From: Paenibacillus sp. FSL H7-0357
GTDB taxonomy: Bacteria > Bacillota > Bacilli > Paenibacillales > Paenibacillaceae
Direction: 5' to 3'
DNA length: 64,000 bases
NCBI RefSeq assembly: GCF_000758525.1
Contig: NZ_CP009241.1
Location: 5,270,001 to 5,334,000, forward strand
Under the pieces are notes generated by a model, which searched no databases, had not been told where the DNA came from, and saw only the letters and a program-made list of their open reading frames with translations. Position 1 is the stretch's first letter. Every line of letters starts with the position of its first letter. Positions 35,409 to 39,585 of this stretch are shown piece by piece. A program made the translations under genes and the position numbers.

Positions 35409-35469
35409 TCTTCTGGAAATATGAGCAGCTAAGTATATGAACCATTGATCAATCCTATAGGGAGTGAAT

Positions 35470-36408
35470 ATGATGAACTCAAGAACTTATGGACGTACAG
35501 GTAAATCCGTATCCGAAATCGGCTTCGGCGGATGGCAGCTGGGCAACAGACAGGATTGGGAAGCCATGGAGGAGGATGCGGCGGTGCGCCTGGTGCATGA
35601 AGCTTTGGAGAGAGGGATAAACTTTTTTGACACCGCTCCCAATTATGGACTTGGCAAAAGCGAAGAGCTGCTTGGGAAGGCTCTAGCCGGAAAACGCAGG
35701 AATGCCGTCATCAATACGAAATTCGGACATCAGGCGGACGGCAGCTCGAACTATGGCGCGGATCAAATCAGGGCCTCGGTTGAAGTCAGCTTGCAGCGGC
35801 TGCAAACTGACTATGTCGATTCCGTGCTGATCCATAATCCGCCTTTTGACATGCTGGATGGGAAACACGGACATTATGAGGAACTGGAGAAGTTAAAAGC
35901 CGAGGGTAAAATCCTCACCTACGGCGTTTCTGTCGATTCCATCCCGGATATGCTGGAGGTTATCGAGCATACGAACATCGGTGTGCTGGAAGTGATGTTT
36001 AATATCTTTTATCAGGAGACTGCCGAAGCGTTCAAGCGTGCCCAGGATAACAATATCGCCATTATTGTCAAGGTCCCACTCGACTCCGGCTGGCTGTCCG
36101 GCAAATATAACAGCCAGAGCAGCTTCGAAGGTGTGCGCAGCCGCTGGTCGCCGGAAGTGATCCGTAAGCGTGCAGCACTTCTGGAGCAAATCAAATTCAT
36201 AACCAATGAAGAAACGACGATGACGATGGCCGCTCTGAGATTCATCCTGGCCTATCCTGAAGTCACAACCGTCATCCCCGGTGTACGGAACAGTGCCCAA
36301 CTGATTGAGAATATATCGGCCAGCGCAGCAGCGATGCCTGAAGCCCACGTCAAGAAGCTTCAGGATCTCTGGATAACGGAGATTAGAGACCAGAAGCTGG
36401 GTTGGTAA
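35470..36408 (+). CDS. Aldo/keto reductase
   Basis: A 312-residue (beta/alpha)8 oxidoreductase. The catalytic Asp and Tyr lie in NFFDTAPNYGLGKSEELLG (about 48-65), the Lys in NTKFGHQ and the His in LIHNPPFD. It ends with the NADPH-binding pattern VIPGVRNSAQLIENI. The start is one of two adjacent ATGs (35470 or 35473) behind TAGGGAG. It is monocistronic with its own terminator. Substrate unknown; similar proteins reduce sugars or aldehydes. Confidence 0.9.
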   Translation: MMNSRTYGRTGKSVSEIGFGGWQLGNRQDWEAMEEDAAVRLVHEALERGINFFDTAPNYGLGKSEELLGKALAGKRRNAVINTKFGHQADGSSNYGADQIRASVEVSLQRLQTDYVDSVLIHNPPFDMLDGKHGHYEELEKLKAEGKILTYGVSVDSIPDMLEVIEHTNIGVLEVMFNIFYQETAEAFKRAQDNNIAIIVKVPLDSGWLSGKYNSQSSFEGVRSRWSPEVIRKRAALLEQIKFITNEETTMTMAALRFILAYPEVTTVIPGVRNSAQLIENISASAAAMPEAHVKKLQDLWITEIRDQKLGW

Positions 36409-36514: not shown

Positions 36515-38095
36515 TTACAATTCAGACCGGACCAAACTGCCGGAGGAGCTGTCCCAGCGCCATGGAACGGTGTGACCCTCCAGATGCAGCCCGCCGTACC
36601 ATTCGTCCAGGCCTTGAACCTCTACCCGGTCTGCTAACCCGTCAAGTATCCGCTCACCAAGCTCGGTGATGGCAACCCGGCGGCCCCAAAATTCCGCAAT
36701 CTGCCGGAAATCCGTATTTCCCTCTGCTCCCTCTATAGTCAGCAGAGGCTGCCGGTTATACACCAGAGTGTGCAGATAACGGCCAAAATCAAGATCACCC
36801 ATGCCGAGCCGGTGCAGCTTGTCGGAAACCAGAGGGAACAGCTCCATCGGTGTAAGCGCGCCATGGCGGACAGCCTGAAGCGTAGTCTCTTCTACGATGC
36901 CAAGGCCGTTATGAACCGAAGGAAGCCTTGAGAGATGGGCTTTGAATGCTTCATAGGCAAAGGGCAGCGCAGATGCCGAAAGCTCTCCCCTTCTCTCCTC
37001 CAGCAGATCAGCCATCGTTCCAGGATCGGTAGACGCATAGGCTCGCCAAAGATCGCTGCCCAGTTCCATTTCTTTGCGCCCAATGCCCTGCCAGGTTCCA
37101 GACAATGTTCCAAGCTGAGCCGGAGTCAGCTGGCCAAGACCGTGAAACAGCTCAATCCCCGGAAATTCACCAATACAGAGCAGGCTCAGCTTCGTACTGC
37201 CGAGCTTCTGTCCTTTGAACCAGTGCAGCAGATAAGCAAGCATGCTCTGATCGAACAGATCATGCTCAAACCACAGTACTACTTCATCATAACGTTTGAA
37301 ATCACGAATCTTCGCCTCCTGTGCCTCACACCCTGCTATATACTCTGTAGAAGGAATGCCTAATGTCTTCTCCAGAACCCCGGCCCGCTGTATCCGTTCA
37401 CTGGAGCCTGCCGGATTGACGAATATCGGACCCGCGGAATAGATTTCCCGCCAGACCAGCACCTCGCCCTGGACAATTCCCTGCTTCAGCATTTCACCCA
37501 CACTGTCTCCGTTCACAATATGCAGCATATTTCTGCCTCCTTCATATAGATAGTTGAACATGGAGGCGAGATCGGCAACGGGAAGAGCTCCCTTCAGCTT
37601 ACGCCGCCCATCATACAGCCGCTTCTTTAGCGCCGAAACCGGAATCCCCAGATAATCCGAGATCTCCTGAAGGGAATAACCATAATAATAAAACAGCTGC
37701 ATGGGCACCCGCAGCTTCGCAGACAACGCCGCAACCGTTCTCTGCAGCAGCTGTTCCCCTTCTCTGCGCTCGGCAATTTCCGCAACGCCCGGCGACTTTT
37801 CCGAGATGTGCAGGGCATCATCAAGAGGCAGCAATATATGTCGTTTACGTCTCAGACTCCGCTGGCACTGCCTTACGACAATCGTCTTGAACCATCCCGG
37901 AAACGCAGCCGGCTCCTGCAGCTTTCCTAGATTCAAATAAGCTTCAATATACGCTTCCTGCACAACATCTTCAGTAAGATGTACATCTTTCAGCATGTCG
38001 TAAGCTACAGCATAAGCCATACCGCGAAAATGCCGCATTAACTGCCCGAACGCTTCCCAATTCTCTTGTTGTGCCTCTTCAACCCATTGCCGCAT
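36515..38095 (-). CDS. ECF sigma factor fused to a DUF1835 protein
   Basis: One 526-residue frame joins two modules. Residues about 1-170 are an ECF sigma factor: region 2 with LTEDVVQEAYIEAYLNLG and a sigma-70 region 4 with LQEISDYLGIPVSALKKRLY. From about 190 the sequence MLHIVNGDSVGEMLKQG begins a DUF1835 domain, followed by a C-terminal part resembling DUF3658 (GELGERILDG region). The start 38095 (MRQWVEE) follows AGAGGATC. No anti-sigma gene is adjacent. An internal ribosome site at the junction could also yield the DUF1835 part alone. The function of DUF1835 is unknown to me; a role as built-in regulator of the sigma part is inference. Confidence 0.82.
   Translation of the reverse strand: MRQWVEEAQQENWEAFGQLMRHFRGMAYAVAYDMLKDVHLTEDVVQEAYIEAYLNLGKLQEPAAFPGWFKTIVVRQCQRSLRRKRHILLPLDDALHISEKSPGVAEIAERREGEQLLQRTVAALSAKLRVPMQLFYYYGYSLQEISDYLGIPVSALKKRLYDGRRKLKGALPVADLASMFNYLYEGGRNMLHIVNGDSVGEMLKQGIVQGEVLVWREIYSAGPIFVNPAGSSERIQRAGVLEKTLGIPSTEYIAGCEAQEAKIRDFKRYDEVVLWFEHDLFDQSMLAYLLHWFKGQKLGSTKLSLLCIGEFPGIELFHGLGQLTPAQLGTLSGTWQGIGRKEMELGSDLWRAYASTDPGTMADLLEERRGELSASALPFAYEAFKAHLSRLPSVHNGLGIVEETTLQAVRHGALTPMELFPLVSDKLHRLGMGDLDFGRYLHTLVYNRQPLLTIEGAEGNTDFRQIAEFWGRRVAITELGERILDGLADRVEVQGLDEWYGGLHLEGHTVPWRWDSSSGSLVRSEL
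37526..37542 (-). promoter_or_regulatory. Internal ribosome-binding site and start in the fusion gene
   Basis: AAGGAGG (complement of 37536-37542) is seven bases before an in-frame ATG (37528) that begins exactly at the first residue of the DUF1835 domain. Initiation here would give a separate 337-residue protein, the size of a stand-alone DUF1835 protein. Confidence 0.65.
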
Positions 38096-38299
38096 CACTT
38101 TCGATCCTCTTTTCACATGTTCTTAACTATAGGTGCCATCTACGAGAAGAAAGGTTACAACGATCTTGGTGCGGGGGTTAAAACTACTTTATCACTCACT
38201 TAATCTACTAAAAATGAGCATATTCATTAAGACAACCACACACTCCGAATTCAATGCCACACATAAGATGTTGTGTCAAGACGAAGGGGGTGATTTGAA

Positions 38300-38731
38300 A
38301 TGGTGAAAACTCTTTTAGATTATAATGCTACTGTAGTAACACCAATTACAGGAGGGATTTCTACATTGATTCCAATCTCTCCTGCGGGCGTGCAGATTGC
38401 AGGAGTAGCGGTGTTTATTGATCCCGCAAATCCTGCCCATTTTCCGAACAAGGTGGAATTGAAAGCTACCATTGGTATCGATGTTCCCAATCTAGGTGAT
38501 TTCCCGAATATTCTGATCCGCATTTGGCGTGCAGGTGTTGAAATTTTCTATGCGCTGGCAGAATATGAAGAAGACTTTAACGATGATGGGATCATCAGCC
38601 TGCATATGGTGGATATCAATGTTCCTGCCGGAACACAAAATTATCAGCTGATTGTTGAAAATCAGGATAATAACTCGACTGCATTTGTTGTCGGTCCTGT
38701 TGTTTTTAGCGCGATGGCGATCGGCGGCTAA
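38300..38731 (+). CDS. Predicted beta-sandwich protein of unknown function
   Basis: A 143-residue protein without signal peptide, Cys or Trp-rich motif apart from a single Trp. GAAGGGGGTGAT precedes the ATG. Alternating hydrophobic strands (VQIAGVAVFID, VELKATIGIDV, ILIRIWRAGVEIF, YQLIVENQD, AFVVGPVVFSAMAIGG) suggest a jelly-roll or beta-sandwich like those of exosporium or spore-surface proteins. That link is inference. It lies next to yvrJ and the split sigma factor and may belong to their regulon. Confidence 0.7.
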   Translation: MVKTLLDYNATVVTPITGGISTLIPISPAGVQIAGVAVFIDPANPAHFPNKVELKATIGIDVPNLGDFPNILIRIWRAGVEIFYALAEYEEDFNDDGIISLHMVDINVPAGTQNYQLIVENQDNNSTAFVVGPVVFSAMAIGG

Positions 38732-39255: not shown

Positions 39256-39585
39256 GTGCAGCAGAGTGAATATAACCGCTATAAAACCGAAATATACCGT
39301 ATTGGCTGGAGGCTGCAATATCGGGCAAAGAAGATCAAGCGACAAGAGAACAGCTACGATGACAAGCTTGCCGTCCCTTCATTCACAGAATCTTCAGATA
39401 ACAAAATCGCTGCGGAACAGCTAATCAGTATGCTGTCCCCATACGAGCGATCCATTTTGCAAAAAATCTATTTGGAAGGTTTGACGGAAGCTGAAGTCGC
39501 TCGCCAGCTCAACATCAGTCAACAGGGGGTGCACAAATGGAAAAGGAAGCTGATTCAGCGCCTATCCCAGATCGCGAATTTTTAA
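39256..39585 (+). CDS. sigO: Sigma-O-like factor, region-4 subunit
   Basis: A 109-residue protein starting at GTG 39256, seven bases after AAGGGGAG. The C-terminal half is a sigma-70 region 4 helix-turn-helix (LSPYERSILQKIYLEGL, then EAEVARQLNISQQGVHKWKRK). The N-terminal part is basic and lacks a full region 2. In B. subtilis SigO supplies the region-4 half of a split sigma factor and works only with RsoA. The next gene, overlapping it, looks like region 2, and yvrJ is divergent, so the arrangement supports the assignment. The symbol is by analogy. Confidence 0.78.
   Translation: MQQSEYNRYKTEIYRIGWRLQYRAKKIKRQENSYDDKLAVPSFTESSDNKIAAEQLISMLSPYERSILQKIYLEGLTEAEVARQLNISQQGVHKWKRKLIQRLSQIANF

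Follow-up and report, generated by a model that had tools for sequence, protein, structure and literature searches.

Does a gene that joins an ECF sigma factor to a DUF1835 domain in a single reading frame make one protein or two, and which half serves which? The question is raised by a locus in the window, the 64,000-nucleotide stretch of Paenibacillus sp. FSL H7-0357 DNA analysed here, whose features are collected in the table below. The initial annotation had described an in-frame ECF sigma–DUF1835 fusion with AAGGAGG and an ATG exactly at the domain border, and both the open frame (526 aa, from the ATG at 38095 to the stop codon at 36515 on the minus strand) and the Pfam domains bear this out. 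Regions 2 and 4 are the sole sigma domains, with no region 1.1 or region 3 model matched in Pfam, which places the sigma half with the ECF type, and the fusion passes the NCBIfam superfamily model TIGR02937 (80.9 bits, cut-off 42.9). DUF1835 (PF08874) occupies residues 191-296 at 37.7 bits (gathering score 21.1) and is all that the Pfam scan found in the C-terminal half, the SnoaL-like domain that marks ECF41 being absent there. The fusion is also the only DUF1835 match in its own genome (E ≤ 0.001). The nearest long frames are convergent downstream (35464-36408, plus strand) and divergent upstream (38300-38731, plus strand), and the canonical pairing with a co-directional anti-sigma gene next door is lacking. 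Approximately 1.2 kb from the fusion start lies a 109-aa frame (39256-39585, plus strand) whose C-terminal half resembles a sigma region-4 helix-turn-helix by eye.

Table. Features of the sigma–DUF1835 locus, in positions of the window.
Feature	Position	Strand	Basis
Fusion gene, ECF sigma + DUF1835, 526 aa	36515..38095	-	Frame, Pfam domains, homologues of the same architecture
Sigma70_r2 (PF04542), residues 19-85	37841..38041	-	Pfam, E 3.5e-12
Sigma70_r4_2 (PF08281), residues 115-167	37595..37753	-	Pfam, E 1.5e-10
Putative ECF-type promoter GTAACCTTTCTTCTCGTAGATGGCAC, its 5' end 63 nt upstream of the fusion start	38133..38158	-	Motif conservation, one strict genome-wide match
Internal Shine-Dalgarno GAAGGAGG, 7 nt 5' of the internal start	37536..37543	-	Sequence; conserved in relatives
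Internal start ATG, Met190, first residue of the DUF1835 part	37526..37528	-	Start codon in 120/120 fusions
Predicted free product, 337 aa, TOPRIM-like and winged-helix predicted	36515..37528	-	PF08874, model, fold matches, free orthologues
Terminator-like hairpin 3' of the stop codon	36424..36438	-	Weak: 3 such found, shuffle mean 2.2

Judging by the spread of its homologues, the fusion is old and common. Scoring of 7997 candidates gave 924 database proteins matching at E ≤ 0.001, and 117 of the best 120 among these 924 matches combine DUF1835 with one or more sigma domains, those with names being mostly from Paenibacillus. A close sigma homologue (E ≤ 1e-30) is present in 66 of 100 genomes of the genus, one apiece and always in a frame as long as the fusion (509-612 aa; in G083 the frame has an internal stop). 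In 64 of the 66 the frame could be seen to continue into the DUF1835 part, which is indicated by frame length only in G047 and G073. In the family, 137 of 245 genomes hold a relative of the DUF1835 part, whether fused or free, and in the order 196 of 296 do (E ≤ 1e-40). For comparison we pooled 214 loci: the window, 73 of 80 fetched genus regions (at least 80 such regions existing), 60 chosen family regions and the best 80 of 290 named matches. Omitted were seven genus regions, namely L046 and six with a different DUF1835 family. Removal of DUF1835 sequences at least 98% identical left 169 loci, comprising 120 intact fusions, 44 free genes (including L043, in which the DUF1835 gene itself is truncated) and five with a broken or partial sigma part. 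The six omitted members of the second DUF1835 family (L106-L111, from G052, G024, G062, G010, G034 and G070) are frames of 508-640 aa whose N-terminal half resembles an HD-type phosphohydrolase by eye (motif GHDWWHI...LHD), so DUF1835 seems to be fused to another kind of partner as well.

The initial annotation proposed that conservation of the fusion and of its internal site be surveyed, and this survey supports the site. The junction codon is a start codon in all 120 non-redundant intact fusions from Paenibacillus and its relatives (100 ATG, 19 GTG and one TTG), the valine and leucine found there being encoded solely as GTG and TTG respectively, and a tree of all 161 rows, free genes included, indicates nine changes between ATG and non-ATG. 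The Shine-Dalgarno sequence is likewise kept. An EGG peptide stands at a fixed place in 107 fusions, and its first glycine is GGA or GGG in every one of them, against a same-gene glycine background of 0.55; in the genus set of 61 it is the most purine-biased of 28 conserved glycine columns (60/60). The median pairing energy with the anti-Shine-Dalgarno is -12.1 kcal/mol at the junction start versus -2.3 for the 3896 other in-frame ATG, GTG and TTG codons of the 120 fusions; only eight of those 3896 are as strong as the junction of their own gene, and 112 of the 120 genes have none. An energy of -8 is reached by 119 of 120 junctions versus 224 of 3896 other start codons, and the exact match to the anti-Shine-Dalgarno complement extends over at least 5 nt in 101 junctions and over 4 nt only in 19. 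Eleven fusions are listed with another peptide at the junction, ten of which have a match of at least 5 nt; the junction YGRNTGM of L281, encoded by TACGGGAGGAATACGGGGATG, has changed its residues and retained its Shine-Dalgarno, and L270 has the weakest among these altered junctions. Synonymous recoding within single genes, holding the peptide constant, often yielded a site just as strong (fraction 0.26 for the window gene, median 0.29 over 61 genes, none below 0.05) and gave no significant result; the argument for the internal Shine-Dalgarno is therefore one of conservation across genes. Structure is only modestly lower at the junction, with a mean unpaired value of 0.461 versus 0.406 elsewhere in the genes (120 versus 720 sites). 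Free orthologues begin at the codon corresponding to Met190.

The fusion also appears to have a promoter of its own. In 113 of the 120 fusions the gene is preceded by the pattern GTAACCTTT-N12-GGCACTTA or a close variant of it, the spacing being the same throughout; the pattern is 56-77 nt away from the start in 109 cases and 109-243 nt away in four. Its -35 element is GTAACC or GTAACT in all 113 and its -10 element GGCAC, not CGT, in 110 of them. The remaining seven fusions consist of five in which the promoter scan gave no match (L085, L191, L242, L252 and L279) and two for which no start was placed (L186 and L278). An AAC in the -35 element is an ECF signature (PMC3426412, in the portion available), and an AAC-bearing -35 does precede this gene. 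Searching 900 nt before each of the 44 free genes revealed the pattern once, in L032, where 50 nt separate it from the DUF1835 start, much as an excision of the sigma part would leave it; two of the five broken loci (L045 and L146) retain it.

The strict form of the pattern occurs once in the 7.7-Mb genome, at the fusion gene, and the chance expectation of the motif within the window is 0.03 at up to one mismatch. Across 100 genomes of the genus it has 79 matches in 63 genomes: 56 are within the fetched sigma-DUF or DUF regions, three (G012, G073 and G091) directly before sigma homologues, one (G023) before a deletion remnant, and 19 off the locus versus 15 for a reversed-pattern control. In the remnant (L290, G023:C20:22659) the promoter is followed by a 94-aa frame joining the first sigma residues to the end of DUF1835. 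With two mismatches allowed, ten further sites appear in the host genome and 23 for the reversed control. A wider regulon is thus without support at strict stringency, although the single strict match may be compatible with weaker or variant promoter targets. Since the promoter stands almost solely before the fusion and off-locus matches are near the control, it is likely that the gene activates itself through its own sigma half.

Free DUF1835 genes are found at 13 fetched loci of the genus set, and the loss of the sigma half has left traces at several others. Nonsense codons interrupt the sigma part of L045 and L146 and the N-terminal half is lost from L168, in each case ahead of an intact DUF1835 frame with its Shine-Dalgarno. 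Sigma tails precede such frames in L127, L223, L240 and L264, some of them out of frame, and shorter tails do so in L038 and L231. A careful tree of 73 rows (61 fused, counting L045 with its nonsense codon, and 12 free) indicates at least six fused/free changes, five of them forced by supported branches, and a quick tree of 161 rows thinned at 93% identity (114 fused, 42 free and five broken) at least 24 switches of state (fused versus free or broken), 13 of them forced, in a topology with support for 50 of 158 inner branches and some long branches. Transfer, as opposed to local loss, may account for some of the free forms. Twelve sigma-less genomes contain no close homologue of the sigma half elsewhere (best E 1.7e-19), with identities of the best matches at or below 36% over most of the sigma length except for one 80-residue stretch at 40% in G011. 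This stretch (G011:C13:146898-147137) sits in a 619-aa frame that is perhaps another sigma factor with a long extension. At one locus (L035, G037) the free DUF1835 gene lies just 3' of a frame resembling a sporulation-type sigma factor by eye; this neighbour would be unrelated to the lost ECF part and its location perhaps due to chance. The opposite loss was not seen, as no close sigma homologue lacks the DUF1835 part in the 66 genomes, two of which were judged by frame length. In sigma-less loci the DUF1835 part remains under purifying selection (dN/dS 0.12-0.32, 7 pairs). The sigma half, with dN/dS of 0.06-0.14 in 11 pairs and below the DUF half in every pair, is strongly constrained and hence in use where it is present.

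The suggestion of the initial annotation that the gene may yield a free DUF1835 protein in addition to the fusion is thereby well supported by comparison, through the conserved start and Shine-Dalgarno, the repeated sigma loss and the purifying selection. Because the second start signal is so strongly conserved, we consider it very probable that the free protein is made alongside the fusion. It could be argued that only the fusion is made, the Shine-Dalgarno and ATG being a fossil of a once-separate gene or arising incidentally from a conserved EGG-M linker, and an EGG peptide alone does make a Shine-Dalgarno likely. This is hard to reconcile with a start codon in every fusion and a purine-ending first glycine codon in all 107, with the retention of the Shine-Dalgarno at most junctions whose peptide has changed, or with the repeated loss of the sigma part while the downstream frame stays intact; a fossil would be expected to drift at about 50% protein identity. 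We regard this explanation as very unlikely. One 400-aa homologue (P0110, Paenibacillus sp. NRS-1782) is missing an inner piece of DUF1835 and has kept the junction EGGQNM. The free form might instead be ancestral, with sigma factors fused to it on many separate occasions, as the change counts were obtained by parsimony on trees with a midpoint root and carry no direction. Against this, sigma family and junction are common to the fusions, as is the promoter in 113 of 120, and several free genes are preceded by sigma tails, nonsense codons or deletions, making so many independent fusions highly improbable.

The second product has a predicted fold. The model of the free half has a pLDDT of 92.2 and its fold matches are to the TOPRIM and winged-helix core of gyrase, so that on predicted structure it has the core fold of the type IIA topoisomerases, apparently with the catalytic residues absent. 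In those enzymes, built on the TOPRIM of GyrB/ParE and the winged helix of GyrA/ParC, the glutamate of the TOPRIM motif EGDSA and the tyrosine of the winged helix are catalytic, and an ATPase is present; none of the three is evident in the C-terminal half described here. An invariant Asn6 (60/60 aligned sequences) takes the place of the EGDSA glutamate of GyrB, no tyrosine after residue 164 is conserved in at least 90% of 60 sequences, and the Pfam scan found no ATPase domain in the fusion. The PF08874 model matches 60 of 60 members of the alignment used (A2; E ≤ 5). Homology to GyrB at the sequence level was not supported, hhalign aligning 19 columns at E 0.0035 with a probability of 9%, and a search of PDB sequences with a profile of the C-terminal half gave nothing credible (one match, E 0.46). 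As the profile match is weak, it is the predicted fold that carries the link to topoisomerases. How the two halves are placed relative to each other is not fixed by the full-length model (pLDDT 81.5, pTM 0.66).

Taken as a whole, we favour with reasonable confidence a private, self-activating sigma gene whose C-terminal half would be made both fused and free. Ribosomes starting at the sigma start would produce the 526-aa fusion, and those starting at the internal Shine-Dalgarno and ATG the free 337-aa protein. The promoter just upstream, given its conservation, would be read by the gene's own sigma half, so that the gene activates itself. The tethered C-terminal half may, as a guess, sense the signal that turns the sigma half on, and the free copies, made in step, may execute the response or, through competition or co-assembly, dampen the loop. 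From the asymmetric loss we infer that the DUF1835 protein matters on its own and that the sigma half would be a dispensable expression device. That loss pattern, together with a promoter almost exclusive to the gene, suggests that the sigma part serves DUF1835 expression at least as much as the reverse, and we lean towards the DUF1835 protein as the main functional product.

As the initial annotation supposed, DUF1835 may regulate the sigma half; in one such reading it acts mainly as a built-in regulator, like the SnoaL-like extension in ECF41, the real outputs lying at other promoters and the free copy tuning in trans by co-assembly with the fusion or by competition. There is precedent in at least 26 ECF groups with members that bear N- or C-terminal extensions predicted to be regulatory (PMC8999054, in the portion available), and both the conservation of the fusion in 120 non-redundant intact cases and the constraint on its sigma half would fit. 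Yet the C-terminal half is kept without a close sigma factor in many genomes, none of the 66 genus genomes with a close sigma homologue shows it without its partner, and off-locus matches to the strict promoter pattern hardly exceed the reversed control, so we hold such a primarily regulatory role to be unlikely. More speculative, and doubtful at present, is that the sigma half is kept only to express its passenger. The gene would then be a closed one-gene switch that activates itself and yields a gyrase-core-like protein with altered catalysis; sigma activity would be set by the tethered copy in answer to DNA topology or to some state linked to gyrase, and the free copy from the internal start would provide the response by acting on DNA or gyrase.

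ECF factors with extensions and internal starts are each already known. Closest to the self-activating fusion favoured here is ECF41 (Ecf41Bli), likewise an ECF sigma factor in which one protein carries its own C-terminal domain, with no anti-sigma partner in its available description (PMC3426412). No targets beyond its neighbouring genes were reported as detectable, whereas the present fusion apparently targets itself; the ECF41 promoter is TGTCACA-n16-CGTC, in contrast to GTAACC-N15-GGCAC, and the available text mentions no internal start of the kind found here (PMC3426412). The ECF41 extension is approximately 100 aa (PMC3426412) and SnoaL-like (PMC8999054, in the portion available), in contrast to a 337-aa TOPRIM-like one. 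Use of an internal in-frame start to make a separate C-terminal part next to the full-length protein, as proposed here, has been reported for the CTP1L endolysin (PMC4777826) and Cas8b/Cas11b (PMC11899642), neither of which is a sigma factor; in the available accounts their dual products were shown experimentally, whereas ours are inferred. In CTP1L the free part forms a complex with the full protein, according to the portion available (PMC4777826), which provides a ready model for tuning in the present fusion.

In the literature searched (open-licence full texts, without supplementary files), DUF1835 is named in a single paper, in passing, and never with an ECF sigma factor, and titles and abstract openings show nothing on a sigma–DUF1835 fusion, which may be catalogued elsewhere. 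Saccharibacillus is a genus of the same family as the present host. A group with type WP_037286607.1 from Saccharibacillus sacchari, ECF264, is listed among those with regulatory extensions (PMC8999054, Table 2, in the portion available), its sole appearance in the literature searched being in that review table. ECF264 may be the same sigma group as the present fusion, and if it is, the fusion as such has already been catalogued. No case of a sigma factor that drives itself and has a TOPRIM-like product nested in its gene and conserved separately was found among those open-licence full texts.

A large number of ECF sigma factors bear fused extensions, many of them without an explanation so far. 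Here the DUF1835 family gains a predicted fold, TOPRIM plus winged helix. Because the same C-terminal protein occurs fused, free and behind broken sigma genes, and has a conserved start and a putative self-promoter, the question of who serves whom would be testable in one soil bacterium.
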